Positions 11,379-64,000 of a stretch of 64,000 bases of DNA are shown here, in pieces. Both the position numbers and the translations under genes were made by a program. The stretch is from NCBI GenBank assembly GCA_016215605.1, contig JACRJB010000018.1, positions 1-64,000 of the forward strand, given 5' to 3'. Below the pieces are notes generated by a model. It had not been told where the DNA came from. It did no database searches and saw only the letters and a list, made by a program, of their open reading frames with translations. Source of the stretch: Rhodopseudomonas palustris. GTDB lineage: Bacteria; Pseudomonadota; Alphaproteobacteria; Rhizobiales; Xanthobacteraceae. How positions within the stretch are numbered: position 1 is the stretch's first letter; every line of letters starts with the position of its first letter.

Positions 11379-11459
11379 CGTCATTGCGAGGAGCGCAGCG
11401 ACGAAGCAATCCAGCGCGGTGCGCGGAGCGTGGATTGCTTCGCTGCGCTCGCATTGACG
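11379..11459. repeat. Family D repeat (CGTCATTGCGAGGAGCGCAG...)
   Basis: An 81-bp element begins CGTCATTGCGAGGAGCGCAG and ends GCGCTCGCATTGACG, with inverted ends and an inner inverted pair GAAGCAATCCA / TGGATTGCTTC. Other copies are at 57431-57512 and, inside a gene, at 60822-60941. The rest of the gap 11264-11591 holds the FNR terminator and otherwise unremarkable DNA before the CLC gene. Confidence 0.85.
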
Positions 11460-43985: not shown

Positions 43986-45851
43986 ATGGGTCTCGGAGAC
44001 GCACTTTCGATCGCAATGGCCGGCCTGCGTGCAAACCAGGCCGCGATGTCGCTGGTGTCGTCGAACGTCGCCAACGCCGAGACGCCGGGCTACGTCCGCA
44101 AGACCGTCGATCAGGTCACCACGGTGGCCGGCGCGTCCGGCAGCGGCGTCTCGATCATCGGCGTCAACCGCGAACTCGACGCCTATCTGCAGTCGCAGCT
44201 GCGCACCGAGACCTCCGGCGCGTCCTACGCCTCGCTGCGTTCCGACTTCTTGAAACAGTTGCAGGGCCTGTTCGGCGATCCGAATTCGACCGGCACGCTG
44301 GAGAATTCCTTCAACAGCCTGACCGCCGCGGTGCGGGCGCTCTCCACCAGTCCGGACAGCACCTCGGCCCGGATCGGTCTGCTCAACGCCGCGCAGGTGA
44401 TGTCCGGCCAGCTCAACGCGATGTCGAACGGCATTCAGGCGCTGCGCACCGGCGCCGAGACCGGCCTGTCCGACAGCGTCACCACCGCCAACAACCTGCT
44501 GCAGCAGATCGCCTCGATCAACAACAACATCCGCACCAATCCGGCCGGCGGCACCTCGACCGACGCCGCCACCGCGTCGCTGCTCGACCAGCGCGATCAG
44601 GCGATCAGCCAGCTGTCGCAGCTGATGGACATCCGCGTCGTCACCGACGCGTCCAATCAGGTCACGATCTTCACCGGCTCCGGGATGCAGCTCGCCGGCA
44701 TGCAGGCCGCCAAGCTGTCGTTCGACGCACAGGGCACGGTGACGCCGAGCACGACGTGGAGTTCGGACGCGAACACCAGTCAGCTCGGCTCGGTCAAGGT
44801 CACCTATTCCGACGGCTCGACGATGGACCTGACCAGCTCGCTGAAGTCGGGCAAGATGGCGGCCTATATCGAACTGCGCGACAAGACGCTGGTGCAGGCC
44901 CAGACCCAGGTCGATCAGTTCGCGGCCTCGATGGCGAGCGCGCTGTCGGATAAGACTACCGCCGGCACCGCGGTGACGTCCGGCACCCAGGCCGGCTTCG
45001 CGCTCGACCTGACCGACATGAAGCCCGGCAACACCATCAATATCAGCTACACCGACACCACCACCGGCACGCAGCGCACCGTCTCGGTGATGCGGGTCGA
45101 CGATCCCGGGGTGTTGCCGCTGCCGCAGACGGCGACGCTCGATCCCAAGGACTACGTGGTCGGGATCGACTTCTCCGGCGCGTCCGGATCGATCACCGCG
45201 CAGCTCAACGCCGCGCTGAACGCCAAGAATCTGCAGTTCACCGGCACCGCGCCGAACATCACGGTGCTGAACAACACCGGCTTCTCGACCGTCACCGCGG
45301 CGTCGGTGACCACCACGGTGACCTCGCTCGCCGGCGGCAGCGCCGAGCTGCCGCTGTTCACCGACGGCAACTCCGTCTACACCGGCGCGCTCAGCAGCAC
45401 CGGGACGCAGATGACCGGCTTCGCGCAGCGCATCGCGGTGAACCCGGCGCTGGTCAACGATCCGGCGAAGCTGGTGACGTATTCGGCGTCGACCGCGGCC
45501 GGCGACACCACGCGCTCAGACTTCATTCTCAAGCAGCTCACCACCAGCAAATATCTGTACTCGCCGTCGACCGGCGTCGGATCGGCGACCGCGCCCTACA
45601 ACGGCACGCTGGAGAACTATCTGCAGCAGTTCGTGTCGCAGCAGGGCTCCAACGCGCAGGCAGCGGCGCAGCTCGCCGACGGCCAGAGCGTGGTGCTGAA
45701 CACGCTGCAGCAGAAATATTCGACCAGCTCCGGCGTCAACATGGACGAGGAGATGGCGCATCTGCTGTCGCTGCAGAACGCCTATTCGGCGAATGCGCGA
45801 GTGATGTCGACGGTGAACCAGATGTATCAGGCGCTGATGCAGGCGATGTGA
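43986..45851 (+). CDS. flgK: Flagellar hook-associated protein 1, FlgK
   Basis: This 621-aa protein begins MGLGDALSIAMAGLRANQAA with the family block SSNVANAETPGYVRKTVDQV and ends SSGVNMDEEMAHLLSLQNAY, the FlgK C-terminal signature. FlgK forms the first hook-filament junction layer. A beta-rich insert at ~347-460 (GNTINISYTDTTTGTQ onward) resembles the modules in FlgE and flagellin. It lies 50 bp after flgE and 7 bp before flgL, so the three form one operon. Confidence 0.95.
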   Translation: MGLGDALSIAMAGLRANQAAMSLVSSNVANAETPGYVRKTVDQVTTVAGASGSGVSIIGVNRELDAYLQSQLRTETSGASYASLRSDFLKQLQGLFGDPNSTGTLENSFNSLTAAVRALSTSPDSTSARIGLLNAAQVMSGQLNAMSNGIQALRTGAETGLSDSVTTANNLLQQIASINNNIRTNPAGGTSTDAATASLLDQRDQAISQLSQLMDIRVVTDASNQVTIFTGSGMQLAGMQAAKLSFDAQGTVTPSTTWSSDANTSQLGSVKVTYSDGSTMDLTSSLKSGKMAAYIELRDKTLVQAQTQVDQFAASMASALSDKTTAGTAVTSGTQAGFALDLTDMKPGNTINISYTDTTTGTQRTVSVMRVDDPGVLPLPQTATLDPKDYVVGIDFSGASGSITAQLNAALNAKNLQFTGTAPNITVLNNTGFSTVTAASVTTTVTSLAGGSAELPLFTDGNSVYTGALSSTGTQMTGFAQRIAVNPALVNDPAKLVTYSASTAAGDTTRSDFILKQLTTSKYLYSPSTGVGSATAPYNGTLENYLQQFVSQQGSNAQAAAQLADGQSVVLNTLQQKYSTSSGVNMDEEMAHLLSLQNAYSANARVMSTVNQMYQALMQAM

Positions 45852-50617: not shown

Positions 50618-51550
50618 ATGAGCCAGACCGCCCCGGTACCAGGTAGTAGCGCTTCGCCGCAGGCCGCGACCGCGCCGCGCGCGCCGTCGGCCGACGAGAT
50701 CCTCGCCGCGATCCTCGCCGCGCTGCCGGAGCTCGCGCATCACCATGCGCCGGGCGGGGCGGCGTATCAGGCGCTCGCCGCGGCGGCGCGCCAGGCGGTG
50801 GTGACGCTGTTCGCGCAAGGCGGCAAGGACGTGCGGTTCGGGCCGTTCGGGCCGATCAGCTTCCCGTATCATGCGATGGGCGCGGTCGACTCGCTCGATC
50901 TGTTCGGGCTCGACGAGCTGATCCTGTTCGCGTTCTACTGGCAGAACCGCGGCGTCTACAAGAACACCGCCGACATCGGCGGCAATATCGGCCTGCACAG
51001 CCTGGTGATGGCGCGCTGCGGCTTTGACGTGAACGCCTACGAGCCCGATCCCGAACACATCGCGCTGTTCAAGGCGAACATGGCGGCCAACGGCGCGACC
51101 AGCGTGACGGTGCACGAGGCGGCGGTGTCGGCCGAGGTCGGCCAGGCGGAATTCCTCCGCCTGCGCGGCAACACCACCGGCAGCCATCTCGCCGGCGCCA
51201 AGAGCGATCCCTACGGCCAGATCGACCGCTTTGCGGTCCGGCTCGAGGCGTTCGCCGCGATCGCCGCCAAGGTCGACTTCGCCAAGATCGACGCCGAAGG
51301 CCACGAGGCGGTGATCATCACCTCGCTGCCGGCCGAGCGCTGGGACGGCTTCGACGCCATGCTCGAGATCGGCAGCGACGCCAATGCGGCGACGATCTTC
51401 GACTATGCGACGCGCAGCGGCGTGCAGATCTTCACCCAGAAGACCGGCTGGCGGAAGGCGCGGAGCGTCGCCGACCTGCCGACCTCCTACAAGCAGGGCA
51501 GCGCCTTCCTCACCCGCAGGGACGCGATGCCGGGCCTGCCGCCGGCATAG
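50618..51550 (+). CDS. FkbM-family SAM-dependent methyltransferase
   Basis: This 310-aa protein has an N-terminal helical part (~25-75) and the FkbM methyltransferase domain: NTADIGGNIGLHSLVMARCG (SAM site), AYEPDPEHIALFKANMAANG, and the closing FAKIDAEGHEAVIITSL matching the family KIDVEG block. FkbM enzymes O-methylate sugars or other hydroxyls. Placement right after the flagellin and before sugar genes suggests methylation of a glycan on flagellin or LPS. ATG 50618 begins MSQTAP; the longer frame to 50498 overlaps the flagellin terminator. Confidence 0.82.
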   Translation: MSQTAPVPGSSASPQAATAPRAPSADEILAAILAALPELAHHHAPGGAAYQALAAAARQAVVTLFAQGGKDVRFGPFGPISFPYHAMGAVDSLDLFGLDELILFAFYWQNRGVYKNTADIGGNIGLHSLVMARCGFDVNAYEPDPEHIALFKANMAANGATSVTVHEAAVSAEVGQAEFLRLRGNTTGSHLAGAKSDPYGQIDRFAVRLEAFAAIAAKVDFAKIDAEGHEAVIITSLPAERWDGFDAMLEIGSDANAATIFDYATRSGVQIFTQKTGWRKARSVADLPTSYKQGSAFLTRRDAMPGLPPA

Positions 51551-51764: not shown

Positions 51765-52451
51765 ATGATGAAGTCGCGCAAGACGCAGGCCCGGGAGACG
51801 CTATCCCCCTTATCGTCGGGTGATATCCATCAGGATGTCGCCCCGAGCCCGCTGGTCTCCCGGCCGCAGATGCTGGGCTACTTCAATTTCCTCCGCGATA
51901 CGCTGGCCGCCACCCAGGTTTCCGACCGCGACGGCCGCAGCTTCAGCCAGGAGGTCGCGGCCTCGCTGGTGATCGCCTGGGCGCGCGAGACGCATGCCGA
52001 AGGCCGCAAGCTGATCTTCATCGGCAATGGCGGCAGCGCCGCGATCGCCAGCCACATGGCCACCGACTATTCCAAGAACGGCGGCATGCGCGCGCTGTGC
52101 CTGAACGACGGCGCGATGCTGACCTGCCTCGGCAACGATTACGGCTACGAGCAGGTGTTCGCCAAGCAGATCGAGCTGTTCGCGCAGGAAGGCGACCTGT
52201 TGATCGCGATCTCGAGCTCCGGCCGCTCGCCGAACATCCTCAACGCGGTGGCGGCGGCGGAACAGCGCGGCTGCCGGATCGTGACGCTGAGCGGCTTCGG
52301 CGCGGACAATCCGTTGCGCAGCCAGGGCGACATCAATTTCTACCTCGCGTCGGAGCAATACGGTTTCGTCGAGATCGGCCATCTGACGCTGTGCCACGCG
52401 ATCCTCGATTTCGCCTGCGGCCAGCGCGTGCCGCTGCCGGCGGCCGGCTGA
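51765..52451 (+). CDS. SIS-domain sugar-phosphate isomerase (GmhA-like)
   Basis: This 228-aa protein has the phosphosugar-binding blocks LIFIGNGGSAAIASHMATDY and LIAISSSGRSPNILNAVAAA, and a late His in IGHLTLCHAILDFAC at the place of the GmhA active-site His. GmhA converts sedoheptulose 7-phosphate to a heptose 7-phosphate. Sequence places it with heptose isomerases, but paralogues act on other ketoses. It may supply the sugar phosphate to the kinase encoded at 58609. Tandem ATGs lie at 51765 and 51768. Confidence 0.8.
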   Translation: MMKSRKTQARETLSPLSSGDIHQDVAPSPLVSRPQMLGYFNFLRDTLAATQVSDRDGRSFSQEVAASLVIAWARETHAEGRKLIFIGNGGSAAIASHMATDYSKNGGMRALCLNDGAMLTCLGNDYGYEQVFAKQIELFAQEGDLLIAISSSGRSPNILNAVAAAEQRGCRIVTLSGFGADNPLRSQGDINFYLASEQYGFVEIGHLTLCHAILDFACGQRVPLPAAG

Positions 52452-52693
52452 CAGCGGCTCGCGGCTCCGGCCCGCCGGCGCGGCCGCTTCCAGCGGGCTT
52501 TCTCCGGACCTCGCGGTCTATCTGCGTGTGGGGAAATGCGTGTAACTGTTTCCCAAGATGTCGGACTGATTCGTGGATGTCGGGTGTCTCCCGCGTGCGT
52601 GGCCGGTGATGTCGATGATCGCCGCTGTCCGGGAACGACCGGCGATCCGCGCGATCCGTTCCGCCCGTGAACGATGAGCAGTGGATTGATCCG

Positions 52694-53632
52694 ATGAAGA
52701 TCCTGGTGACCGGCGCTTGCGGCTATGTCGGGACGACGCTGGTGCCGAAGCTGCTGGCGCGCGGCGACGAGGTGGTGGCGTTCGACATCATGTGGTTCGG
52801 TAACGATCTGCCGCCGCATCCGAAGCTCACCGTGGTGCGCGGCGACGTCCGCGACGCTAAGTCGATCCCGCTGGACGGCATCGACGCCATCATCCATCTG
52901 GCTTCGGTCGCCAATGATCCGTGCGGCGACCTCAATCCGAAACTGACCTGGGAGATCAGCGCGCTCGCCACCATGCAGCTCGCCGACCGCGCCGCGCGCG
53001 AAGGCATCGCGCGCTTCATCTACGCGTCGTCCGGCAGCGTCTACGGCATCAAGGACGAAGAGCAGGTCACCGAGGACCTGACGCTGGAGCCGATCTCCGA
53101 ATACAACAAGACCAAGATGGTCGCCGAGCGGGTGATGCTCAGCTATGGCGGCGACATGGCGGTGCAGATCGTACGCCCGGCGACGGTGTGCGGGCCGTCG
53201 CCGCGGATGCGGCTCGACGTCTCGGTCAACATGCTGACCATGCAGGCGCTGACCAACGGCGAGATCACCGTGTTCGGCGGCAACCAGGTTCGCCCCAACA
53301 TCCACATCGACGACATCACCGACCTCTACGTGATGCTGCTGGAGCGGCCGGAGCTGCGCGGCGTCTACAATGCCGGCTTCGAGAACATCTCGATCCTGGA
53401 CATCGCCCGGATGGTCGATGCCCAGGTGCCGACCAAGATCACCGTCACCGAATCCAACGACCCGCGCTCCTACCGGATCAATTCCGACAAGCTGCTGGCG
53501 ACCGGCTTCAAGCCGAAGAAGACAGTGAACGACGCGATCCGCGAGATCATCGTCAAGTTCCAGCGCGGTGAGCTGAAGAACGAGGACCGCGCCTACAATC
53601 TGCGCTGGATGCAGCGGAGCGTGCAGGCGTGA
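52694..53632 (+). CDS. NAD-dependent epimerase/dehydratase (extended SDR)
   Basis: This 312-aa sugar-nucleotide enzyme has the NAD site MKILVTGACGYVGTTL (1-16), the catalytic SSGSVYG and YxxxK (EYNKTK, ~137-141), and the late block NAGFENISILDIARMV. It resembles the GalE/RfbB superfamily; the substrate is unknown. The next gene starts within its stop codon (GTGA), so the two are coupled. ATG 52694 is preferred over GTG 52667, which adds nine residues. Confidence 0.85.
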   Translation: MKILVTGACGYVGTTLVPKLLARGDEVVAFDIMWFGNDLPPHPKLTVVRGDVRDAKSIPLDGIDAIIHLASVANDPCGDLNPKLTWEISALATMQLADRAAREGIARFIYASSGSVYGIKDEEQVTEDLTLEPISEYNKTKMVAERVMLSYGGDMAVQIVRPATVCGPSPRMRLDVSVNMLTMQALTNGEITVFGGNQVRPNIHIDDITDLYVMLLERPELRGVYNAGFENISILDIARMVDAQVPTKITVTESNDPRSYRINSDKLLATGFKPKKTVNDAIREIIVKFQRGELKNEDRAYNLRWMQRSVQA

Positions 53633-54666
53633 CCCGACCGATCCCGGCGTCGTCGCCAGAAGCGAAGGCCGGCGCGGCGTTCGGCAAGGTCCTGGTGCTC
53701 GGCAGCAATTCCTTCACCGGCGCCGAGATGGTGCGCGATCTGCTCGACCACGGCGCCGACGTGGTCGGCGTCAGCCGCTCGCCGGAGCCGCACGAGGCAT
53801 TCCTGCCGTATCGCTGGACCAACACCGAACGCTTCCGCTTTCGTCAGCTCGACCTCAACCACGACCTCGACGCGCTGATGGCGCTGATCGAGGCCGAGCG
53901 GTTTCCCTGGATCATCAACTTCGCCGCGCAGAGCATGGTCGGCGAAAGCTGGCTCAATCCCGACCACTGGTTCATGACCAACGTGGTCTCGACGGTGCGG
54001 CTGCACGAACGGCTGCGGCGCTGCGACTTCCTGCAGCGTTACGTCCACGTCACCACGCCGGAAGTCTACGGCAACGCCACCGGCACGCTGACCGAGGATG
54101 CGCCGTTCGATCCGTCGACGCCCTATGCGGTGTCGCGCGCCGCCGGCGACATGAGCCTGCGCTCGTATTTCCGCGCCTATCAGTTTCCGGTGCTGTACAC
54201 CCGCGCCGCCAATGTCTACGGGCCGGGGCAGCGGCTGTACCGCATCGTGCCGCGCACCATCCTGTTCATCCGGCTCGGGCGTAAACTCCAATTGCACGGC
54301 GGCGGCACTTCGGAGCGCTCGTTCATCGCCGCCTCCGACGTCGCCGAGGCGACGCGGCGGATCGCCGCCAACGGCACGCTCGGCGAGACCTATCACATCT
54401 CAACCGACCGCGTCGTCACCATCCGCGAACTGGTCGAGATGATCTGCACCACGATGGGCGTCAAGTTCGAGGACCACGTCGAGATCGTCGGCGAACGGCT
54501 CGGCAAGGACTCCGCCTACAGACTCGACAGCGGCAAGATCCGCCGCGAGCTCGGCTGGCGCGATCAGATCACGCTGGAGCAGGGCATCGACGACACCATC
54601 CGCTGGGTCGATCGCTGGTTCGACGTTCTGAAGACCCAGCCGTTCGACTACGCGCACAAGCCTTGA
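53629..54666 (+). CDS. NAD-dependent sugar-nucleotide dehydratase-like protein with YxxxR active site
   Basis: This 345-aa extended-SDR protein resembles GDP-mannose or dTDP-glucose 4,6-dehydratases: KVLVLGSNSFTGAEMV (NAD site), NFAAQSMVGESWLNPDHW, TTPEVYGNATGTLTED and RAANVYGPGQRLYRIVP. The catalytic YxxxK reads YAVSR, so the usual lysine is replaced by arginine. It may be a true dehydratase with Arg in that role, or a changed reaction. It overlaps the preceding epimerase by 4 bp and the methyltransferase follows 8 bp later. Confidence 0.83.
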   Translation: MTRPIPASSPEAKAGAAFGKVLVLGSNSFTGAEMVRDLLDHGADVVGVSRSPEPHEAFLPYRWTNTERFRFRQLDLNHDLDALMALIEAERFPWIINFAAQSMVGESWLNPDHWFMTNVVSTVRLHERLRRCDFLQRYVHVTTPEVYGNATGTLTEDAPFDPSTPYAVSRAAGDMSLRSYFRAYQFPVLYTRAANVYGPGQRLYRIVPRTILFIRLGRKLQLHGGGTSERSFIAASDVAEATRRIAANGTLGETYHISTDRVVTIRELVEMICTTMGVKFEDHVEIVGERLGKDSAYRLDSGKIRRELGWRDQITLEQGIDDTIRWVDRWFDVLKTQPFDYAHKP

Positions 54667-54674
54667 GGACCGCG

Positions 54675-55334
54675 ATGGGCCAGGAAATCGATCTGCTCGT
54701 CAACTATCCGCGCACCAAGCGCAATGTCGACGAGCGCGGCCAGACCAAGTCGGAAGAAGACCGCGCGATCGCGCGAAAATTCGGCCAGGAGTTCTTCGAC
54801 GGCGACCGCCGCCACGGCTATGGCGGCTTCAACTACATGCCGCGGTTCTGGCAGCCGGTGATCCCGACCTTCCAGTCCCATTTCGGCCTCGACGCGTCGT
54901 CCTCGGTGCTCGACGTCGGCTGCGCCAAGGGCTTCATGCTGCACGACATGGCCGAGCTGATCCCCGGCATCACCGTCAAGGGCGTCGACGTCTCCAGCTA
55001 CGCGATCGAGCACGCGATCGACGACATGAAGCCGCATGTCAGCGTCGCCAGCGCGACCAAGCTGCCGTTCGCCGACAAATCGTTCGACGTGGTGATCTCG
55101 ATCAACACCGTGCACAACCTCGTCCGCGACGACTGCGCCATCGCGCTGCGCGAGATCGAACGGGTGGCGCGCAGGGGTGCGTTCATCACCGTCGACGCCT
55201 ATCGCGACGACGAGGAGAAACGCCGGATGATGGCGTGGAACCTCACCGCGCAGACCATCATGCATGTCGACGAGTGGAAGGCGTTCTTCGCCGAGATCGG
55301 CTACACCGGCGATTACTACTGGTTCATCCCATGA
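54675..55334 (+). CDS. Class I SAM-dependent methyltransferase
   Basis: This 219-aa protein has the SAM motif SSVLDVGCAKGFMLHDMAEL (~75-94), the second acidic VKGVDVSSYAIEHA and the FDVVISINTVHNL block of Methyltransf_11/25 enzymes. Its position inside the sugar cluster suggests methylation of a sugar nucleotide, possibly a C-methyl transfer, or of an intermediate. GAGG lies 6 bp before ATG 54675. The next gene starts 13 bp on. Confidence 0.82.
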   Translation: MGQEIDLLVNYPRTKRNVDERGQTKSEEDRAIARKFGQEFFDGDRRHGYGGFNYMPRFWQPVIPTFQSHFGLDASSSVLDVGCAKGFMLHDMAELIPGITVKGVDVSSYAIEHAIDDMKPHVSVASATKLPFADKSFDVVISINTVHNLVRDDCAIALREIERVARRGAFITVDAYRDDEEKRRMMAWNLTAQTIMHVDEWKAFFAEIGYTGDYYWFIP

Positions 55335-55347
55335 TCTGGTTCGTTTC

Positions 55348-56340
55348 ATGAACGCCGAGACGTCGCGCCGTCTGCTGTTCGACATGCTGCGGATCCGCAG
55401 CGTGGAGGAGACGATCGCGGCGCGCTACGGCGAGCAGACCATGCGCTGCCCGACGCATCTGTCGGTCGGGCAGGAAGCGGTCGCGGCCGCCGCCGGCGCG
55501 GTGCTGAAGCCGACCGATCTCGCCGTCAGCGGCCATCGCGCCCATGCGCACTATCTCGCCAAGGGCGGCTCGCTGAAGGCGATGATCGCCGAGATCTACG
55601 GCAAGGTGACCGGCTGCTCGCGCGGCAAGGGCGGCTCGATGCATCTGATCGACGAGAGCGTCGGCTTCATGGGCTCGACCGCGATCGTCGGCGGCACCGT
55701 GCCGGTCGGCGTCGGGCTGGCCTATCCGATGAAGCTCAACAACACCGGGCAAATCTCCTGCGTGTTCCTCGGCGACGCGGTGCCGGAGACCGGGGTGTTC
55801 TTCGAGTCGGTGAACTTCGCCGTGGTGAAGCAACTGCCTGTGCTGTTCCTGTGCGAGAACAACGGCTACTCGGTGTATTCGCCGCTGAGCGTCCGGCAGC
55901 CGCCGGGGCGCAAGCTCTATGAGCTGGTCGCAGGCTTCGGGCTGAAGACGTTTCACGGCGACGGCAATGATGTTCGCGCGGTGCATGCGGCGCTGAGCGA
56001 GGGCGTGGCGGCGATCCGCGCCGGCGAGGGGCCGCGGTTCTACGAATTCGAGACCTATCGCTGGCGCGAACATTGCGGGCCGAACTACGACAACGACATC
56101 GGCTATCGCAGCGTCGCCGAATACGAGGCGTGGAAGCTGCGCGATCCGGTGCCGGCGCTGCGGCGTGCGCTGATCGCGGAGGGGGCGATCAGCGACGCCG
56201 ATGTCGCGGCAATGCAGGCGGCGATCGACGCCGAGATCGCGGAAGCTTTCGCGTTCGCCGAAGCCTCGCCGTTCCCGGATGCCTGCGACGCGTTCACCGA
56301 CGTCTATGCGGCGGACGCGTTCGCGCCGGCGGCAGGCTGA
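55348..56340 (+). CDS. TPP-dependent dehydrogenase E1 alpha-like subunit
   Basis: This 330-aa protein resembles the alpha subunit of pyruvate/acetoin/branched-chain 2-oxoacid dehydrogenase E1: CPTHLSVGQEAVAAAAGAVL, SRGKGGSMHLIDES, and the thiamine-diphosphate motif GDAVPETGVFFESV, then CENNGYSVYS. The usual GDG reads GDA, but the Mg-binding Asp and Asn are kept. The beta subunit follows 10 bp later. No E2 or E3 is nearby, so it probably does not form a classical complex and may carry out C2 or aldehyde transfer to a sugar. Confidence 0.82.
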   Translation: MNAETSRRLLFDMLRIRSVEETIAARYGEQTMRCPTHLSVGQEAVAAAAGAVLKPTDLAVSGHRAHAHYLAKGGSLKAMIAEIYGKVTGCSRGKGGSMHLIDESVGFMGSTAIVGGTVPVGVGLAYPMKLNNTGQISCVFLGDAVPETGVFFESVNFAVVKQLPVLFLCENNGYSVYSPLSVRQPPGRKLYELVAGFGLKTFHGDGNDVRAVHAALSEGVAAIRAGEGPRFYEFETYRWREHCGPNYDNDIGYRSVAEYEAWKLRDPVPALRRALIAEGAISDADVAAMQAAIDAEIAEAFAFAEASPFPDACDAFTDVYAADAFAPAAG

Positions 56341-56350
56341 GGAGGGCGCG

Positions 56351-57403
56351 ATGAGCACGACATTCGCCGCCGCCATCCGCGAGGGCCTCGCCACGGCGCT
56401 CGCCGCCGACGACAGCGTGATCTGCTTCGGGCTCGGCACCGACGATCCCAAGGGGGTGTTCGGCACCACGCTGGATCTGCACAAGCAGTTCGGCTCCGAC
56501 CGCGTGTTCGACATGCCGACCTCGGAAGCGGCGATGACCGGGATCGCGATCGGCGCGGCGCTGAACGGGCTGCGCCCGGTGCTGACGCATCAGCGGCTCG
56601 ACTTCGCGCTGCTGTCGCTCGATCAGCTCGTCAACAACGCCGCCAAATGGCGCTTCATGTTCGGCGGCCAGCGCGGCGTGCCGATCACCATCCGGATGAT
56701 CATCGGCCGCGGCTGGGGCCAGGGCCCGACGCATTCGCAGAGTCTGCAATCCTGGTTCGCGCATATCCCCGGCCTCAAGGTGGTGATGCCCACCACGGCC
56801 GCGGACGCCAAGACGCTGCTGCTCGGTTCGATCTTCGACGACGATCCGGTGATCTTCCTCGAGCATCGCTGGCTGCACAACATGCAAGGCGACGTTCCGG
56901 CCGGCGACGTCCGTGAGCCGCTCGGCAAGGCGCGCGTGGTGCGCAGCGGCGACGCGGTGACGATCGTGGCGATGAGCTACATGACCGTGGAGGCGCTGCA
57001 TGCGGTCGATCATCTCGCCGCGCAGGGCATCGCCTGCGATCTGATCGACCTGCGCAGCATCCGCCCGCTGGACTGGCCGGCGGTGATCGCCTCGGTGCAG
57101 AAGACCGGCCGGCTGCTGGCGCTCGACCCCGGGCATCTCACCGGTGGCGTCGCCGGCGAAATCGTGGCGCGGATCGCGACCGATCACTTCACGAGTTTGA
57201 ATTGCGCGCCGCAGCGCCTCGCCGCGCCCGACGTGCCGGAGGCGACCAGCCCGGCGCTGACGAAGGATTATCACGTCCGCGCCGAACACATCGCGCAAGC
57301 CGTCGGCCGTATGCTCGGCCGCGAGGTCGAAACCGCGTCGCTGATCGCGCAGCGCCAATTCCCGCACGACGTGCCGGGCAATTGGTTCTCGGGACCGTTT
57401 TGA
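56351..57403 (+). CDS. TPP-dependent dehydrogenase E1 beta-like subunit
   Basis: This 350-aa partner of the alpha subunit has RVFDMPTSEAAMTGIAIGAA, where the Glu that activates thiamine diphosphate is kept, and GRGWGQGPTHSQSLQSWFAH, then PGLKVVMPTTAADAKTLL, as in E1 beta and transketolase-like proteins. A typical C-terminal domain ends DVPGNWFSGPF. GGAGGG lies before ATG 56351. Together the pair should form an alpha2beta2 enzyme; the acceptor substrate is unknown. Confidence 0.83.
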   Translation: MSTTFAAAIREGLATALAADDSVICFGLGTDDPKGVFGTTLDLHKQFGSDRVFDMPTSEAAMTGIAIGAALNGLRPVLTHQRLDFALLSLDQLVNNAAKWRFMFGGQRGVPITIRMIIGRGWGQGPTHSQSLQSWFAHIPGLKVVMPTTAADAKTLLLGSIFDDDPVIFLEHRWLHNMQGDVPAGDVREPLGKARVVRSGDAVTIVAMSYMTVEALHAVDHLAAQGIACDLIDLRSIRPLDWPAVIASVQKTGRLLALDPGHLTGGVAGEIVARIATDHFTSLNCAPQRLAAPDVPEATSPALTKDYHVRAEHIAQAVGRMLGREVETASLIAQRQFPHDVPGNWFSGPF

Positions 57404-57430
57404 GGGCGCGATGATGGCAACACCTTTCCC

Positions 57431-57512
57431 CGTCATTGCGAGCGAAGCGAAGCAATCCAGCGCCGAGCACGAGGCTGTGGATTGCTTCGTCGCTGCGCTC
57501 CTCGCCATGACG
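57431..57512. repeat. Family D intergenic repeat
   Basis: An ~82-bp element begins CGTCATTGCGAGCGAAGCGA and ends CGCTCCTCGCCATGACG. The inner pair GAAGCAATCCA / TGGATTGCTTC matches copies at 11379 and 60822. It splits the sugar cluster between the E1 beta and alcohol dehydrogenase genes; no T-run follows, so transcription may well read through. Confidence 0.85.
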
Positions 57513-57547
57513 GGGAGAGTGCAGGACTCGACCACGCGGAGGCGGCG

Positions 57548-58603
57548 ATGTCCGTGACCTTCCGCGCTGCGGTGCTGCGCGACCTCAACCAGCCGCTCAG
57601 CATCGAAACCGTCGAAGCGCCGCAACTCGCCGCCGGGCAGGTGCTGGTCAAGCTGGCGTACTCCGGCGTCTGCCACAGCCAGGTGATGGAGGCGCGCGGC
57701 GGCCGCGGCGTCGATCGCTATCTGCCGCATATGCTCGGCCACGAAGGCTCCGGAGTCGTGGTCGAGACCGGCGCCGGCGTCGGCAAGGTCAAGCCGGGCG
57801 ACCGCGTCATCCTCGGCTGGATCAAGGGCAAAGGCTCGGATGCCCAGGGCATCCGCTACAAGGCCGGCGACGGCTTCATCAATGCCGGTGCGGTGACGAC
57901 GTTCAACGAATACGCCGTGGTCGCCGAAAACCGCGTCACGCTGCTGCCGCAGGGCCTGCCGATGGACGTCGCGGTGCTGTTCGGCTGCGCGCTGCCAGTC
58001 GGCGCCGGCATCGTCATCAACATCGCCAAGCCGCAAGCCGGCAGCACGCTCGCGGTGTTCGGCCTCGGCGGCATCGGGCTGTCCGCGCTGATGGCCTGCA
58101 AGCTGTTCGACTGCAAGCAGCTGATCGCCGTCGACGTCGAGCCGTCGAAGCTGGCGATGGCCCGCGAGCTCGGCGCCACCACGGTGATCGACGCGTCCAG
58201 ACAAGACCCGGTCGCGGCGATCCGCGAACTGACCGGCGGCCTCGGTGTCGACTACGCGATCGAATCCGCCGGCCTGGTCAAAGTCATCGAGCAGGCGTTC
58301 GACGCGACGCGGCGGTTCGGCGGGCTGTGCGTGTTCGCCTCGCATCCGCGCAGCGGCGAAAAAATTGCGCTCGATCCGTTCGAACTGATCTGCGGCAAAC
58401 GCATCCTCGGCACCTGGGGCGGCGACGCCAATCCCGACCGCGACATCGAGTTGCTGGCGGGGCTGTATCGCGACGGCAAGCTGCCGCTGGCGTCGCTGTT
58501 CAGCCGCCGCTACGCGCTCGACGAGATCAATGTCGCGCTCGACGATCTCGAACATCGCCGCAGCGTGCGGCCGTTGATCGAAATCGATCCGACCCTGGGC
58601 TGA
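57548..58603 (+). CDS. Zinc-type alcohol dehydrogenase lacking the structural-zinc loop
   Basis: This 351-aa MDR-family oxidoreductase has catalytic zinc ligands C42 (SGVCHSQ), H65 (GHEGSG) and C147 (GCALPVG), and the NAD site VFGLGGIGLSA (~172). The lobe that usually holds four Cys (structural zinc, ~90-110) reads WIKGKGSDAQGIRYK with no Cys. It oxidises an alcohol or reduces an aldehyde/ketone; in this setting a sugar or sugar-acid intermediate is likely. The next gene begins 5 bp later, so it leads a tightly packed run of genes. Confidence 0.85.
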   Translation: MSVTFRAAVLRDLNQPLSIETVEAPQLAAGQVLVKLAYSGVCHSQVMEARGGRGVDRYLPHMLGHEGSGVVVETGAGVGKVKPGDRVILGWIKGKGSDAQGIRYKAGDGFINAGAVTTFNEYAVVAENRVTLLPQGLPMDVAVLFGCALPVGAGIVINIAKPQAGSTLAVFGLGGIGLSALMACKLFDCKQLIAVDVEPSKLAMARELGATTVIDASRQDPVAAIRELTGGLGVDYAIESAGLVKVIEQAFDATRRFGGLCVFASHPRSGEKIALDPFELICGKRILGTWGGDANPDRDIELLAGLYRDGKLPLASLFSRRYALDEINVALDDLEHRRSVRPLIEIDPTLG

Positions 58604-58608
58604 CCGCG

Positions 58609-60090
58609 ATGCTGCATCCCGAGACCGAAGCGACGCTGCAGCAGATCCGGGCCGAGGCCGGCCCGGACCGCGCCATCGTGTTCGTCTCCGGCAATTTCAA
58701 CATCGTCCATCCCGGCCATCTGCGGCTCTTGAAATTCGCCGCCGAATGCGGCGACGTTCTCGTCGTCGGCGTCGTCGCCGATCCCGGCTACGACTGGATG
58801 CTGCCGAACGAGCTCCGGCTCGAAGGCGTCCACGCGATCGGCTTCGTCAACCACGCTTTCCTGCTGCGCGACCGGCCCGAGGACGTCGTCGCCGCGCTGA
58901 AGCCCGCGGTGGTGGTGAAGGGCAAGGAACACGAAGGTGCCGACAATCCCGAGAAGCCGGTGCTCGACGGCTATGGCGGTCGGCTGCTGTTTTCGTCGGG
59001 CGAAGTCGCGTTCTCCTCGCTCGATCTGATCCGGCGCGAGTTCCGCGAGTTCAATCCGTCGTCGATCTTCAAGCCGCTGGACTATCCGCGGCGGCACCGC
59101 TTCGCGGTCGCCGACCTCAAGACCGTGCTGGCGAAATTCCCGACGCTGAACGTGCTGGTGATCGGCGACCTGATCGTCGACGAATACATCGCCTGCGATC
59201 CGCTCGGCATGTCGCAGGAAGATCCGACCATCGTCGTCACCCCGGTGCTGCGCGAATTGTTCGTCGGCGGCGCCGGCATCGTCGCCGGCCACGCGGCGGG
59301 GATGGGCTGCAAGGTGAGTCTGCTCACCGTCGGCGGCAAGGACGCGATGGCCGATCTCGCCCGCGAGCGGCTGGCGTCCTACAACGTCGACACCATCATC
59401 CTCACCGACGAGAGCCGGCCGACCACCAACAAGCAGCGTTTTCGCGCGGGGAACAAGACGTTGCTGCGCGTCAGCCATCTCAAGCAGCACGACATCGACG
59501 TCGATCTGCAGGACAGCATGCTGGCGACGGTGCGCGACAAGCTGCCGACGATCGATCTCGTGGTGTTCTCCGATTTCAACTACGGCTGCCTGCCGACCAA
59601 ACTGGTCGAGGCGATCAGCGCGCTGTGCCGCGAGCGCTCGATCCCGATGGTCGCCGACAGCCAGTCGTCGTCGCAGGTCGGCGACATTTCGCGCTTCAAG
59701 AACATGCTGCTGGTCAAGCCGACCGAGCGCGAGGCGCGGCTGGCGCTGCGGGACTTCGATTCCGGCCTCGTCGTGTTGGTCGAGGCGCTACGGCAGAAGG
59801 CGAAGGCGAAGAACGTCATCCTGACGCTCGCCGCCGAAGGCCTGCTGGTGCACGCCGCCGCCGGTCGCGGCTCGGTGCTGACCGATCGGCTGCCGGCGTT
59901 CAACACCGCGCCGAAGGATGCGGCGGGGGCGGGCGACTCGTTCTTCGTCTGCGCCGGCCTTGCGCTCGCGGTCGGCACCGACATCTGGCGCAGCGCGTAT
60001 CTCGCCTCGATCGCCGCCGCCTGTCAGGTCGGCCGCATCGGCAACATCCCAGTCACCGCCGCCGACATCATCAAGGAACTCGACGCGTGA
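58609..60090 (+). CDS. HldE-like bifunctional protein with reversed domain order
   Basis: This 493-aa protein has a nucleotidyltransferase domain first (FVSGNFNIVHPGHLRLL; HxGH at 34-37) and a PfkB/RfaE-type sugar kinase second (VLVIGDLIVDEYIACDPLGM near 183, GGAGIVAGHAAGMG, and the catalytic AGAGDSFF near 440). In HldE the kinase is N-terminal and the adenylyltransferase C-terminal, so here the domains are swapped. Expected reactions are phosphorylation of a heptose 7-phosphate at C1 and nucleotide transfer. The stop overlaps the next GTG start. Confidence 0.82.
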   Translation: MLHPETEATLQQIRAEAGPDRAIVFVSGNFNIVHPGHLRLLKFAAECGDVLVVGVVADPGYDWMLPNELRLEGVHAIGFVNHAFLLRDRPEDVVAALKPAVVVKGKEHEGADNPEKPVLDGYGGRLLFSSGEVAFSSLDLIRREFREFNPSSIFKPLDYPRRHRFAVADLKTVLAKFPTLNVLVIGDLIVDEYIACDPLGMSQEDPTIVVTPVLRELFVGGAGIVAGHAAGMGCKVSLLTVGGKDAMADLARERLASYNVDTIILTDESRPTTNKQRFRAGNKTLLRVSHLKQHDIDVDLQDSMLATVRDKLPTIDLVVFSDFNYGCLPTKLVEAISALCRERSIPMVADSQSSSQVGDISRFKNMLLVKPTEREARLALRDFDSGLVVLVEALRQKAKAKNVILTLAAEGLLVHAAAGRGSVLTDRLPAFNTAPKDAAGAGDSFFVCAGLALAVGTDIWRSAYLASIAAACQVGRIGNIPVTAADIIKELDA

Positions 60091-61043
60091 GCGCGCCGGG
60101 CAAAGCGCTGCTGGTCGCGGCGGGGCTCGGCACGCGGCTGCATCCGCTCACCCAGGTGCTGCCGAAATGCCTGATGCCGATCGCCGGGCGGCCGCTACTT
60201 GGGCTGTGGCTGGCGATGCTGCGCGAGGCCGGCTTCACCGAGATCGTCGTCAATCTGCATCACCACGCCGAGCTGGTCAGCGACTACATTCGCCGCAGCC
60301 CGTGGGCCGATCAGGTCGTGCTCGCGCCCGAACAGGAACTGCTCGGCACCGCCGGCACGCTGTTGCGGCATCGCGCGCGCTTCGCCGAGGGCCCGACGCT
60401 GTTCGCCCATGCCGACAATCTCAGCCTGTTCGATCCGCGCGCGTTTCTTGCCGCGCATGCGGCGCGGCCGGGCGATTGCGCGATGACGATGATGAGTTTC
60501 GTCACCGATCATCCGCAGAGCTGCGGCATCCTCACGCGCGATGCGGAAGGTCGCGTGCTGCAGATGGACGAGAAGCCGCAGCAGCCGAAGGGCGACCTCG
60601 CCAACGCTGCGGTCTATGTGATCGAGCCGGAGGTGATCGATTTCATCGCCTCGCTCGGCAAACCCGTGGTCGATTTCTCCACCGAAGTACTGCCGGTGTT
60701 CATGGGGCGGATCTTCTCGTTTCACAATGCCAGCTACCATCGCGACATCGGCAATCCATCCAGCCTGGCGCTGGCGCAGCTGGACTATCCGCTGGCGTTG
60801 TTGCAGTTCGAGACCTCTCCACGTCATTGCGAGGAGCGCAGCGACGAAGCAATCCAGAGCCGCGTGCACGGGTCTCTGGATTGCTTCGCGGAGCCTGTCA
60901 TCGGGCGGCGCTCTGCGCCGACCCGTTGGCTCGCAATGACGAGGGGCGACGATCCTTGGTACGGGCTGATGTCGGACAACGGCGGTACGTTGGCGAAGTC
61001 GTTCGCGCAGGCCGCGGCGCAAGCCTATGGCGGAGCCCGCTAG
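60087..61043 (+). CDS. Sugar-1-phosphate nucleotidyltransferase (HddC/mannose-1-P guanylyltransferase-like) carrying an in-frame repeat insert
   Basis: This 318-aa protein has the NTP-transferase signature VAAGLGTRLHPLTQVLPKCL and MPIAGRPLLG, and the metal-binding FAHADNLSLF. It couples a sugar 1-phosphate to an NTP, most likely GTP by similarity to HddC-type enzymes. Residues ~246-285 are encoded by a family D repeat (60822-60941, 120 bp = 40 codons), reading HCEERSDEAIQ and more. The catalytic part is upstream of the insert, and the tail DPWYGLMSDNGGTLAKSFAQ resumes after it, so activity may be kept. GTG start overlaps the previous stop; the SDR gene follows directly. Confidence 0.8.
   Translation: MSAPGKALLVAAGLGTRLHPLTQVLPKCLMPIAGRPLLGLWLAMLREAGFTEIVVNLHHHAELVSDYIRRSPWADQVVLAPEQELLGTAGTLLRHRARFAEGPTLFAHADNLSLFDPRAFLAAHAARPGDCAMTMMSFVTDHPQSCGILTRDAEGRVLQMDEKPQQPKGDLANAAVYVIEPEVIDFIASLGKPVVDFSTEVLPVFMGRIFSFHNASYHRDIGNPSSLALAQLDYPLALLQFETSPRHCEERSDEAIQSRVHGSLDCFAEPVIGRRSAPTRWLAMTRGDDPWYGLMSDNGGTLAKSFAQAAAQAYGGAR
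60822..60941. repeat. Family D repeat inside a coding sequence, in frame
   Basis: The element is bounded by a perfect 11-bp inverted repeat, CGTCATTGCGA and TCGCAATGACG, and contains GAGGAGCGCAGCGACGAAGC and the inner ATCCAGAG/CTCTGGAT pair. It is 120 bp long, a multiple of three, and has no stop codon in the host frame. Intergenic relatives at 11379 and 57431 are 81-82 bp; this copy has an extra ~38 bp near the right end. Confidence 0.9.
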
Positions 61044-61850
61044 ATGGCCGGCAGCGTGATCATCGCGGCGATCTCCAGCGACATCGGCGTGCAATTGGCG
61101 AAGCTGTATCGCGCGCAGGGCGTCGCGGTGATCGGGACCTATCGCTCCGCGGACAATCTCGACGAACTGAAAGCCGACGCCGGCATCCATCTGGTGCATT
61201 GCGATCTGACCGATGCCGACAGCGTAAGTCGCGCGGCGGCGGAGATCGCGGCGCTGAACAGACCCTGGGAGCGTTTCGTCAGCGCGGCCGGGCAGTTGTC
61301 GCCGATCGGCGATTTCTTCGGGCGCGATTTCGCCGAATGGGCGGCGTCGCTGTCGCTGAATTCGGTGGCGCAGATGCGGCTGCTGCATGCGCTGTATCCA
61401 CATCGCGATCAGTCGTCGGTCGCCAAGGTTGCATTCCTGGTCGGCGGCGGCATCAATGGGCCGTTCCGCAACTACTCGGCTTACTGTCTCGGCAAGGTGA
61501 TGCTGGTGAAGCTGTGCGAACTGCTCGACGACGAATATCCGGACGTCCACGCGATCGCGGTCGGCACCGGCTGGGTCAATACCAAGATCCATCGCCAGAC
61601 CGTCGAGGCGGGTGACGACGCCGGAATCAATCTGCGCCGCACGCTGGAATTCATCGACAGTGGTCAGCAAGGCACCAGCTATGAGGACATCTTCGGCTGC
61701 ATCGAATGGGCGTTCGGCGCCGGCCGCGTTGCCACCGGTGGACGGAATTTTTCGGTGGTGCACGATGGCTGGCGTGGCGGCGGCGCGCAACTGACTGCGC
61801 GGCTCGAAGCCGACACCAACATTTACAAGCTGCGACGGCACGGCAATTGA
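61044..61850 (+). CDS. Short-chain dehydrogenase/reductase
   Basis: This 268-aa SDR has a modified cofactor loop, VIIAAISSDIGVQLAKLYRA (in place of GASxGIG), and catalytic YxxxK in YSAYCLGKVML with an upstream Ser-containing segment. It likely uses NAD(P)H to reduce a keto group on a sugar intermediate. It starts one base after the nucleotidyltransferase stop, so the genes are translated together. The TPP enzyme follows 28 bp later. Confidence 0.8.
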   Translation: MAGSVIIAAISSDIGVQLAKLYRAQGVAVIGTYRSADNLDELKADAGIHLVHCDLTDADSVSRAAAEIAALNRPWERFVSAAGQLSPIGDFFGRDFAEWAASLSLNSVAQMRLLHALYPHRDQSSVAKVAFLVGGGINGPFRNYSAYCLGKVMLVKLCELLDDEYPDVHAIAVGTGWVNTKIHRQTVEAGDDAGINLRRTLEFIDSGQQGTSYEDIFGCIEWAFGAGRVATGGRNFSVVHDGWRGGGAQLTARLEADTNIYKLRRHGN

Positions 61851-61878
61851 GCGCGCCGAGTTGCGCCAGGAGGTTCGC

Positions 61879-63681
61879 GTGAAGCTGTCCGATTACGTCA
61901 TCGATTTCCTCGCGCGGCGCGGCGTCACCCATGTGTTCGGCATTTCCGGCGGCGCGGCCGTGCACATGTTCGATTCGGCCGCGCGCCATCCCGACGTCAC
62001 GCCGATCTTCCCGCAGCACGAGCAGGCCGCGGCGATCGCGGCCGACGGCTATGCGCGCGCCACCGGCAGGCTCGGCGTCGCGATCACCACGAGCGGGCCG
62101 GGCGCGACCAATCTGCTGACCGGGGTGTGCTGCGCCTATTACGACTCGGTGCCGACGCTGATGATCACCGGGCAGGTGGCGACGCATCGGCTCAAGGGCA
62201 AGAACGATGTGCGCCAGCTCGGCTTTCAGGAGACAGACGTCACCTCGATCTTTGCGACCGTGACCAAATACGCGGTGCAGATCAGCGATCCCAACACGAT
62301 CCGCTATCATCTGGAAAAGGCGGTTCATCTCGCGTTCGAAGGCCGGCCGGGTTCGGTGCTGATCGATCTGCCGGACGATCTGCAGCGCGCCGAGATCGAT
62401 CCGGAGACGCTGCCGTCCTTCGTGCCGGAGGCAGAGATTGCGACAACGAATCTCGACGCCGCGATCGCGGCGCTGCTGCCGCTGATCGCGCAGGCGAAGC
62501 GGCCGGTGCTGGTGCTCGGCGGCGGGCTGGCGACGCCGCGGATCGGCGCCGCGCTCGATCAGCTGATCGACCGGCTCGGCCTGCCGGTGCTGACCACCTG
62601 GGCCGCGACCGATCTGATCGCGCATGACCATCCGCTGCGAGTCGGGCCGTTCGGCGTCTACGGGCCGCGGCTCGGCAACTTCACGGTACAGAACGCCGAC
62701 CTGATCCTGTGTCTCGGCAGCCGGCTGTCGCAGAACGTCACCGGCGGCATCCTGCCGTCGTTCGCGCGCGAGGCGCGGATCGTAATGGTCGACGCCAGCC
62801 GCGGCGAGATGGACAAGTTCGACGAGCGCGGCATCGCCATCGCGACGCGGATCGAAGCGCGGCTCGATGCGTTCGTGCCGAAGCTGCTCGGCGCACTCGA
62901 GGCGTCGCCGCCGCGCGACGCGTGGCTGGCGCAGATCGCGCACTGGCGCGGCGCGCTGCCGGACGATCGCCCGGGTCCCGCGCCCGCCAATGCCGGTTTC
63001 GTCGACGCCTACGACTTCATCGACAAGCTCAGCGCCGCGGCGCCCGCCGACGAACTGATCTATGTCGACACCGGCGGCAATTTGACCTGGACCTGCAACG
63101 GCTTCCGCATCCAGCGCGGCCAGCGGCTGATCTCCGACTGGAACAACACCGCGATGGGCTACGCGCTGCCGGCCGCGATCGGCGCCGCGGTGCAGGCGAA
63201 GGGCGGCGTCAGCTGCATCATCGGCGACGGCGGTCTGATGCTGTCGCTCGGCGAACTGGCGCTGCTGGCGCGGCATCGTCTGCCGCTGCGGCTGTTCCTG
63301 TTCAACAATCACGGCCACGGCATCCAGAAGCAGACGCTGGAGACCTGGCTCGCGGCGAACTACGTCGGCGTCGATGCGCCGAGCGGATTGTCGTTCGTCG
63401 ATTTCGCCAAGGTCGCGGAAGCGATGGATCTGCCGGTCGTCAGCATCAGCCGAAGCGGGGATATCGCGGGCAAGCTGCGCGAGGTCTATGCGCGCAAGGG
63501 ACCGGTGTTCTGCAATGTCGAGATCAATCCTGCGCAGAAGCTGTACCCGGTGCTGAAATTCGGCGCGCCGCTGGAAAGCCAGATGCCGGCGATCGACGAC
63601 GCGCAGATCGCCCGCGAGATGATCGTGCCGCCGTTCGTGCCGGGGGCACCGCCGAAGCACAGCGGCGGCGCGGGGGTGTGA
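61879..63681 (+). CDS. Acetolactate-synthase-like TPP-dependent enzyme
   Basis: This 600-aa enzyme has the three domains of the ALS/POX family. The Glu that activates the cofactor is in FPQHEQAAAIAADGYARATG, the middle domain begins RPVLVLGGGLATPRIGAAL, and the cofactor motif is GDGGLMLSLGELALLARHRL ending FNNHGHG. AGGAGG lies 5 bp before GTG 61879, so this start is preferred to TTG 61861. Relatives in sugar pathways (YerE type) attach a two-carbon acetyl unit from pyruvate to a keto sugar, making a branched chain; others are ordinary acetolactate synthases. No ilvH small subunit follows, which favours the sugar role. Confidence 0.83.
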   Translation: MKLSDYVIDFLARRGVTHVFGISGGAAVHMFDSAARHPDVTPIFPQHEQAAAIAADGYARATGRLGVAITTSGPGATNLLTGVCCAYYDSVPTLMITGQVATHRLKGKNDVRQLGFQETDVTSIFATVTKYAVQISDPNTIRYHLEKAVHLAFEGRPGSVLIDLPDDLQRAEIDPETLPSFVPEAEIATTNLDAAIAALLPLIAQAKRPVLVLGGGLATPRIGAALDQLIDRLGLPVLTTWAATDLIAHDHPLRVGPFGVYGPRLGNFTVQNADLILCLGSRLSQNVTGGILPSFAREARIVMVDASRGEMDKFDERGIAIATRIEARLDAFVPKLLGALEASPPRDAWLAQIAHWRGALPDDRPGPAPANAGFVDAYDFIDKLSAAAPADELIYVDTGGNLTWTCNGFRIQRGQRLISDWNNTAMGYALPAAIGAAVQAKGGVSCIIGDGGLMLSLGELALLARHRLPLRLFLFNNHGHGIQKQTLETWLAANYVGVDAPSGLSFVDFAKVAEAMDLPVVSISRSGDIAGKLREVYARKGPVFCNVEINPAQKLYPVLKFGAPLESQMPAIDDAQIAREMIVPPFVPGAPPKHSGGAGV

Positions 63682-63945: not shown

Positions 63946-64000
63946 TGTGGAGATGCTGATCGTGGGTCTTCAGCGTTTCCCAGGAAGCACCGGCTTCGCG

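Follow-up and report, generated by a model that had tools for sequence, protein, structure and literature searches.

A flagellin-flanked gene island of Rhodopseudomonas palustris as a candidate pathway to a nucleotide-activated C-branched higher sugar

We analysed a 64,000-nucleotide stretch of Rhodopseudomonas palustris DNA (the window; GenBank assembly GCA_016215605.1, contig JACRJB010000018.1, positions 1 to 64,000). It carries an island of twelve genes between a flagellin gene and a gene for a tetratricopeptide repeat (TPR) and glycosyltransferase-41 (GT41) protein that resembles FlmG of Caulobacter. From gene families and their conservation we propose that the island makes a nucleotide-activated, C-branched higher sugar, which would be supplied to the FlmG-like transferase for glycosylation of flagellin; we put the probability of this reading at about one half. 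What is new is a predicted variant of thiamine diphosphate (ThDP)-dependent branched-sugar biosynthesis. An earlier note on this DNA had proposed a pathway to a heptose-derived, chain-extended or branched sugar akin to bradyrhizose. Its reading of the chemistry involved and of a relationship to bradyrhizose holds up, whereas the identity it suggested and, most likely, the destination do not.

Open-frame listing and Pfam/NCBIfam family assignment give eleven co-directional sugar genes on the + strand between positions 51765 and 63681 (Table 1), one more than the earlier count of ten, which had their direction right. Three gene pairs overlap by 4 bases and one pair abuts. The set comprises a SIS-domain isomerase, an epimerase, the dehydratase-like gdh, an S-adenosylmethionine (SAM)-dependent methyltransferase (MT), an E1 alpha/beta pair, a zinc alcohol dehydrogenase (ADH), a nucleotidyltransferase-kinase fusion, an HddC-like nucleotidyltransferase, a short-chain dehydrogenase/reductase (SDR) and an acetolactate synthase (ALS)-like enzyme. 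Neither lipoyl E2, E3 nor the ALS small subunit (IlvN) is encoded among the cluster genes, in agreement with the earlier observation that the E1 pair lacks an E2 and the ALS-like enzyme a small subunit. An FkbM-family methyltransferase gene to the left belongs with the sugar set, judging from its relatives (43–50% identity): in unrelated bacteria these share three loci (L069, L076 and L135) with SDR and ALS-like genes, and another lies beside E1 genes in L121. The eleven genes and fkbM occur in identical order in the window genome and in each of the nine further genomes of the genus with a fusion kinase (75–97% identity), indicating that the gene set is not a chance assembly. A promoter/terminator scan found one promoter-like site, compared with 1.3 in shuffled sequences and so no excess, and 10 terminator-like sites, compared with 6.8.

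Three classes of ThDP enzyme are described as branching keto sugars at the ketone to give a tertiary alcohol: YerE-like lyases of lipopolysaccharide (LPS) pathways, E1-type aKADH2 pairs that use pyruvate, and split transketolases (PMC12247030). Among solved structures, the top relative of the ALS-like enzyme is 8rph (356 bits), followed by acetolactate synthase II (282 bits). The former is JanthE, which belongs to the YerE-like enzymes and transfers units from 2-oxo acids to ketones (PMC12188165). A tree of 15 rows unites JanthE with the window enzyme and eight cluster relatives (100/100), apart from five ThDP paralogues of the window genome including IlvB; JanthE is the sole YerE-like and outside reference in this tree and IlvB its sole sure ALS, and there is a long-branch warning among the paralogues. 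The closest neighbours of JanthE inside this group include L083, L123 and L126, with the window enzyme further off; the latter is 35% identical to JanthE and 28% identical to IlvB of its own genome. The ThDP residues are intact (catalytic Glu and GDG...NN), and the protein scores 366.5 of the 538.35 bits required by the ALS equivalog. By sequence it groups with the YerE-like ketone carboligases as a putative relative.

The E1 pair keeps its catalytic motifs, and both subunits score below the pyruvate dehydrogenase (PDH) E1 equivalogs (alpha, 283.2 of 393.85 bits; beta, 278.2 of 454 bits). Housekeeping enzymes lie elsewhere in the genome and exceed their cut-offs: IlvB (1199.6 bits; cut-off 974) adjoins IlvN (226.7; cut-off 119) on contig C9, and PDH E1 alpha (508.2; cut-off 393.85) and a lipoyl-bearing E1 beta (859; cut-off 454) are on contig C2. 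Because these separate copies exist and the ALS-like enzyme groups with JanthE, an ordinary ALS and oxoacid dehydrogenase are unlikely in the cluster, and we rejected this candidate. The outcome that the earlier note had named as fatal to its proposal has thereby become improbable, and its view that two carboligase-type ThDP enzymes are dedicated to a sugar pathway is supported.

Insertions in gdh of Bradyrhizobium ORS285 abolish the bradyrhizose O-antigen, with polar effects possible (Busset et al. 2016; PMC4743980). The gene lies in an eleven-gene cluster, syntenic in six photosynthetic strains, that was proposed to make a bradyrhizose precursor; the accessible portion of that paper presents the synthesis genes as previously unknown and names no enzyme roles beyond gdh (PMC4743980). 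Both published ORS285 gdh primers match the Bradyrhizobium locus L050, from a 7.8 Mb single-contig genome, without mismatch and span 381 bases inside its gdh, to which the window gdh is 64% identical; in a second genome (L048) there is a single mismatch to one of the primers, while its partner finds no site within three mismatches. The L050 genes form a one-strand run of eleven: fusion kinase, HddC-like protein, epimerase, SIS isomerase, gdh, transketolase N, transketolase C, ADH, HAD-like protein, APH and methyltransferase. The HAD-like label comes from the first residues of a protein with no Pfam match and no NCBIfam match at 1e-20. In number this run fits the eleven genes of the paper; L048 has a further same-strand frame after the methyltransferase.

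Seven of the eleven L050 genes have counterparts in the window: the epimerase (75% identity), gdh (64%), the fusion kinase (54–55%), the HddC-like protein (~50%), ADH (48%), MT (44%) and the isomerase (32%). Transketolase N (TktN), transketolase C (TktC), the HAD-like gene and APH are absent from the window cluster, and E1 alpha, E1 beta, the SDR and the ALS-like gene stand in their place. The Bradyrhizobium locus and the window cluster have a core in common and not the full set. Kinship with the bradyrhizose genes holds through the gdh orthologue and the seven counterparts, a link that is indirect; the reading of the window cluster as the bradyrhizose cluster itself was rejected on these four substitutions. 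As the cassette differs, the product should differ too, and is probably not bradyrhizose itself.

The surroundings of the island are flagellar. To its left lie FlgK and the flagellin gene; to its right, and convergent with it, lie genes for the 713-residue TPR and GT41 protein, a second flagellin, FlgH, FlgA, an FlgG-type rod protein and FliM. All ten cluster-bearing Rhodopseudomonas genomes have the arrangement flagellin, fkbM, cluster, TPR-GT41, flagellin, the left flagellin being recognised by its C-terminal part in the nine other than the window genome. Across 16 genomes of the genus, 10 have both the cluster and the TPR-GT41 gene, 1 has the TPR-GT41 gene alone and 5 have neither (Fisher p 0.0014, kinship ignored); the single genome with TPR-GT41 alone is a draft of ~800 contigs that is 92% complete. 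FlmG of Caulobacter, a TPR and glycosyltransferase protein, acts in the cytoplasm, where it attaches pseudaminic acid to flagellin (PMC7591256). On our best reading, the cluster product would serve O-glycosylation of flagellin through the FlmG-like transferase. We found no branched sugar of this kind in flagellin glycosylation in the open-licence literature.

Both flanking flagellins are very long, at 887 residues (47772–50435) and 885 residues (contig C72 66628–69282; L139:3129–5783), and each has two DUF1522 stretches. Near the Bradyrhizobium cluster, in stretch L143 (8071–14900), three tandem genes resemble the FlmG-like TPR-GT41 protein at 41–44% identity. For the + strand frame across from the TPR-GT41 gene of the window genome there is no Pfam match.

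The cluster could instead make an O-antigen sugar of Rhodopseudomonas, for example ropiose, the C4-branched sugar of strain CGA009, or a relative of bradyrhizose, with its position between flagellins incidental. The Bradyrhizobium relative serves the O-antigen, which is lost in gdh mutants (PMC4743980), so we take a flagellin destination from gene position alone, and this weighs against it. The CGA009 O-antigen is a 3-O-methylated C4-branched higher sugar (PMC9912281), and ropiose of R. palustris has been named together with a YerE-like enzyme, RhopE, as its assumed branch maker (PMC12247030); the cluster likewise has methyltransferases and a YerE-like enzyme. However, there is no O-antigen polymerase, flippase or ABC exporter among the frames assigned around the cluster (three to the left, from position 43986 on, and ten to the right plus one opposite frame), and the neighbours with a family assignment are the flagellins, FlgK, FlgH, FlgA, the FlgG-type rod protein, FliM and TPR-GT41. 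Both the place and the FlmG-like gene are kept in 10/10 cluster-bearing genomes. An O-antigen destination consequently seems to us the unlikelier one, although it deserves to be kept in view.

A scan with an alignment of the fusion kinase found 285 relatives in named genomes, of which the best 80 were examined. Proteobacteria contribute to these 80, as do bins carrying labels such as Nitrospina, Nitrospirae, Omnitrophica, Acidobacteria and Chloroflexi, and the Rhodopseudomonas strains among them are AAP120, JA575, BR0M22 and XCP; most relatives are metagenome bins, whose taxon labels need caution. Together with six loci of our choosing (L039, L040 and L048–L051) and the window they make up 87 loci. 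Outside this set stand L041–L044 (taken as the same as the named L059–L062), L045–L047 (same genus, E type) and L052–L058 (kinase relatives of only 32–34% identity, although L052 has E1 genes at 47–50%).

E1 genes are present at 21 of the 87 loci, a split transketolase at 22, and both at none, using thresholds of identity (E1 42%, transketolase 50%) and coverage that are uneven and were fixed after the identities were known; transketolase-like genes of 34–48% identity in L066, L100, L104, L108, L121 and L124 fall below threshold and count as absent. The chance of zero overlap is 0.0008 treating the loci as independent, and 0.011 after dropping ten close relatives (77 loci). HAD-like and APH genes accompany the transketolase at 18/22 loci and E1 genes at 0/21. 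SDR, ALS-like and FkbM genes are found at 11, 12 and 11 of the E1 loci, respectively, and at no transketolase locus. Seven of the 21 E1 loci are in Rhodopseudomonas, and 4 of the 14 outside the genus have the SDR, as do 4 the FkbM gene. Cassette labels cover 43/87 loci. A genome-wide search confined to unlabelled loci (41 of 44, leaving out L102 and, on short contigs, L125 and L131) found TktN at 57% identity or more in 21, E1 alpha at 54% or more in 4, both in none and neither in 16, these cut points having been set after the gaps in the lists were known. In the open-licence literature we found no description of a cluster family with swappable carboligase cassettes.

We followed the cassette labels on quick trees of the individual genes. 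The label changes only 2 times on the MT tree and 3 times on the ADH tree (shuffled means 11.6 and 12.2), in comparison with 10 for the fusion kinase and 11 for the HddC-like protein (14.7 and 14.3), and 6, 6 and 5 for epimerase, gdh and isomerase (9.6, 10.5 and 9.2). On a common set of 31 loci there are 1 (MT), 3 (ADH), 7 (kinase) and 9 (HddC-like) changes, with shuffled means of 10.6–10.8; here 5 of 300 shuffles are as low for the kinase and 65 for the HddC-like protein. The difference between MT and ADH and the core genes in cassette tracking is one of degree. On our reading, a common upstream core would form the keto sugar that accepts the branch, and MT and ADH would come into play after the ThDP step, on what it produces.

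Several observations weigh against this reading or against the proposal as a whole. On the full trees, the shuffles that are as low number, of 300, 0 for the kinase, 11 for the HddC-like protein, 4 for the epimerase, 2 for gdh and 3 for the isomerase, and the core is not free of the cassette. MT and ADH may track the cassette through linkage alone. Two E1 loci, L121 and L137, have the other ADH type. Beyond Rhodopseudomonas the ALS-like gene occurs at only 5/14 E1 loci, at two of them with 31–32% identity. L121, an Omnitrophota bin, combines E1 genes (43–44%) with transketolase-like genes (41% and 35%) and FkbM, and at a threshold of 40% for both the two cassettes co-occur there. Further exceptions are the Bradyrhizobium-type ADHs, which the tree places on the E side, and L090, with the other MT type on a long branch. 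L121 is a possible intermediate or double-cassette type.

It is also conceivable that in the transketolase type the split enzyme makes a ketose phosphate precursor upstream of the isomerase and no branch, so that the cassette types differ beyond the branch. Transketolases normally make sedoheptulose 7-phosphate, and GmhA-like enzymes act on this compound. However, MT and ADH track the cassette far more closely than hldE and hddC do, which fits action after the ThDP step, and split transketolases have been proposed as ketone branchers in miharamycin and amipurimycin (PMC12247030). We regard an upstream transketolase as a minority possibility. A pathway to a common methylated heptose or deoxyhexose, in which the role of the ThDP enzymes would be confined to providing precursors such as acetolactate or acetyl units, is improbable: although both enzymes come from large families with housekeeping members, dedicated housekeeping copies are present, the ALS-like enzyme groups with a ketone carboligase, and clusters that are alike in other respects have a split transketolase where the E1 pair would be, which alternative C2 transferases would be expected to show.

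The identity of the starting sugar bears on how the upstream core is read. Assignment of the activation enzymes to the GmhA, HldE and HddC families, as made in the earlier note, stands at the level of relatives and falls at the level of equivalogs, with scores far under the NCBIfam cut-offs (95.9 of 209.45, 181.9 of 345 and 46.3 of 300 bits, respectively); for this reason they are relatives rather than proven heptose enzymes. Domain order in the HldE-like fusion is reversed, with the nucleotidyltransferase first and the PfkB kinase second. Elsewhere in the genome, contig C39 encodes a canonical HldE kinase domain above cut-off (374.8 of 345 bits), and contig C51 a GmhA relative whose score (188.2 of 209.45 bits) comes closer to the cut-off than that of the isomerase in the cluster.

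Three features speak against a heptose start. The kinase domain of the fusion is a weak HldA relative (67 bits) with GGAGIVA for GGAANVA; the isomerase has Asp where solved GmhA has Glu, in 21/21 aligned rows; and the solved structures nearest to gdh are deoxythymidine diphosphate (dTDP)-glucose 4,6-dehydratases (162 bits), with a guanosine diphosphate (GDP)-heptose dehydratase at 68 bits. On these grounds heptose is doubtful as the starting sugar. A plain adenosine diphosphate (ADP)- or GDP-heptose pathway was rejected on the scores and altered motifs, a heptose start being kept as possible. In gdh, T-P-E is present in 25/25 rows, and the lysine position of YxxxK is Arg in 21, His in 3 and Lys in 1, the window copy reading YxxxR. 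Arg or His at this position in 24/25 rows is unusual in an SDR, and leaves plain 4,6-dehydration less than certain, a further point against the proposed core.

The Rhodopseudomonas isomerase is a family outlier, in that all 20 labelled non-genus loci with a called isomerase have one closer to the Bradyrhizobium copy, which suggests gene replacement in Rhodopseudomonas. The hddC-like gene has an in-frame insert near its C-terminus (window ~60831–60960), present in 7/7 Rhodopseudomonas rows compared; the rows from L119, L133 and L050 are without it. The insert DNA in the window matches a dispersed palindromic repeat, also found at 57441–57503 and 11388–11443.

These assignments suggest the following pathway. 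SIS isomerase, kinase and nucleotidyltransferases would convert a ketose phosphate, perhaps sedoheptulose 7-phosphate, to a nucleoside diphosphate (NDP)-aldose, from which the epimerase and gdh dehydratase would form an NDP-keto-deoxy sugar. E1 alpha/beta would decarboxylate pyruvate and, there being no E2 to receive the acetyl unit, place it on the sugar ketone; the result would be a C2-branched tertiary alcohol, and ADH would reduce the ketone in the branch. The YerE/JanthE-like enzyme and the SDR would carry out a second carboligation and reduction in a sub-variant; such a step is likely in the window, L069, L076 and L135, with a more distant ALS-like enzyme in L123 and L126, and would make the product larger than a plain C2-branched sugar. 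The two methyltransferases would provide O-methylation.

The branch expected is a methyl-bearing C2 unit with an E1 pair and a hydroxyacetyl unit with a split transketolase. A C-methyl group is part of bradyrhizose. The ring closures of this sugar run through OH-4, OH-5 or OH-9 (PMC9912281), which implies that C4 bears a hydroxyl and two further carbons besides C3 and is a tertiary alcohol. Taken with the branches expected of ThDP enzymes, this makes ThDP-dependent ketone addition at C4 a natural proposal for bradyrhizose too. More tentatively, and with rather less assurance than for the island itself, we suggest that these loci represent a widespread, undescribed family of surface-sugar pathways. 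Its shared core (reversed HldE, HddC-like, GmhA-like, epimerase and gdh) would be combined with swapped cassettes: a split transketolase that transfers hydroxyacetyl, or E1 alpha/beta, which takes an acetyl unit from pyruvate and may be joined by a second carboligase of the YerE type. The sugar bradyrhizose would then be of the transketolase type, its C4 alcohol marking the ThDP ketone addition, and Rhodopseudomonas flagellin would bear a doubly branched or extended relative.

Table 1. Genes of the island and its borders, in window coordinates
Feature	Position	Strand	Remarks
Flagellin	47772..50435	+	887 aa; Flagellin_N, two DUF1522 stretches and Flagellin_C (Pfam); left border of island
FkbM-family methyltransferase	50618..51550	+	Family search; O-methylation probable
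SIS-domain isomerase, GmhA-like	51765..52451	+	Family search
NAD-dependent epimerase/dehydratase family SDR	52667..53632	+	Motifs SSGSVYG and YNKTK; 75% identity to Bradyrhizobium-cluster copy
4,6-dehydratase-like SDR (gdh)	53629..54666	+	Orthologue of gene hit in bradyrhizose-minus ORS285 mutants
SAM-dependent methyltransferase (MT)	54663..55334	+	Family search; subfamily tracks E cassette
E1 alpha-type ThDP subunit	55348..56340	+	Proposed acetyl-branching enzyme together with E1 beta
E1 beta-type ThDP subunit	56351..57403	+	Glu and His motifs kept; without lipoyl domain
Zinc alcohol dehydrogenase (ADH)	57548..58603	+	Subfamily tracks E cassette; proposed branch-ketone reduction
Nucleotidyltransferase (N-terminal)-PfkB kinase (C-terminal) fusion, HldE-like	58609..60090	+	
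Sugar-1-phosphate nucleotidyltransferase, NTP_transferase/HddC-like	60087..61043	+	In-frame dispersed-repeat insert near C-terminus
Short-chain dehydrogenase/reductase (SDR)	61044..61850	+	Only in E-cassette loci at thresholds used
ALS-like ThDP enzyme	61861..63681	+	Groups with JanthE (YerE-like ketone carboligase)
TPR and glycosyltransferase-41 gene, FlmG-like, 3' end	63973..64000	-	Whole gene, contig C72 63973-66111; proposed flagellin O-glycosyltransferase

Within the open-licence literature that names the sugar, the biosynthesis of bradyrhizose is treated, as far as the accessible text of these sources extends, only by Busset et al. 2016 (PMC4743980). For genes of the Bradyrhizobium cluster, our comparison proposes a role open to testing, and it forecasts the class of reaction to which the key step belongs. 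The sets of ThDP enzymes in these loci may use ketones as acceptors, and biocatalysts of that kind are in demand.

The system has parallels in each class of known ThDP sugar-branching enzyme. YerE-like lyases (YerE, ErwE, JanthE, MMAR_2332 and RhopE) belong to the same ALS-like fold family as the window enzyme and also sit with keto-sugar enzymes, and JanthE is its best solved match; the window enzyme differs in having an E1 pair alongside, in its GDG where JanthE has CDG, and in an identity to JanthE of 35%. The aKADH2 pairs (AviB1/AviB2, Pau11/Pau12 and KbDH-alpha/beta) likewise consist of E1 alpha/beta without E2 in a sugar cluster and are proposed to form a C2 branch from pyruvate, with AviB1/AviB2 and Pau11/Pau12 the proposed installers of a C4 acetyl branch (PMC4753412). 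Those pairs are described, in the sources consulted, from antibiotic clusters, whereas the window pair is in a Gram-negative surface-glycan setting. Split transketolases of the miharamycin and amipurimycin type are the same kind of enzyme as the alternative cassette of Bradyrhizobium and its relatives, and are absent from the window cluster. The split transketolases described with ketone acceptors are 13 putative sequences, all from Streptomycetes and uncharacterised in vitro (PMC12247030); the relatives in the present cluster family, by contrast, come from Proteobacteria and bins of other phyla.

The FlmG-like protein shares with FlmG of Caulobacter a TPR N-terminus and a glycosyltransferase C-terminus, a likeness of domain make-up rather than of direct alignment, and adjoins flagellin genes; the donor in Caulobacter is pseudaminic acid. 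The Bradyrhizobium cluster (Busset et al. 2016) has a core of seven genes in common with the window, but its phenotype there lies in the O-antigen, whereas the context of the window cluster is that of flagellin.

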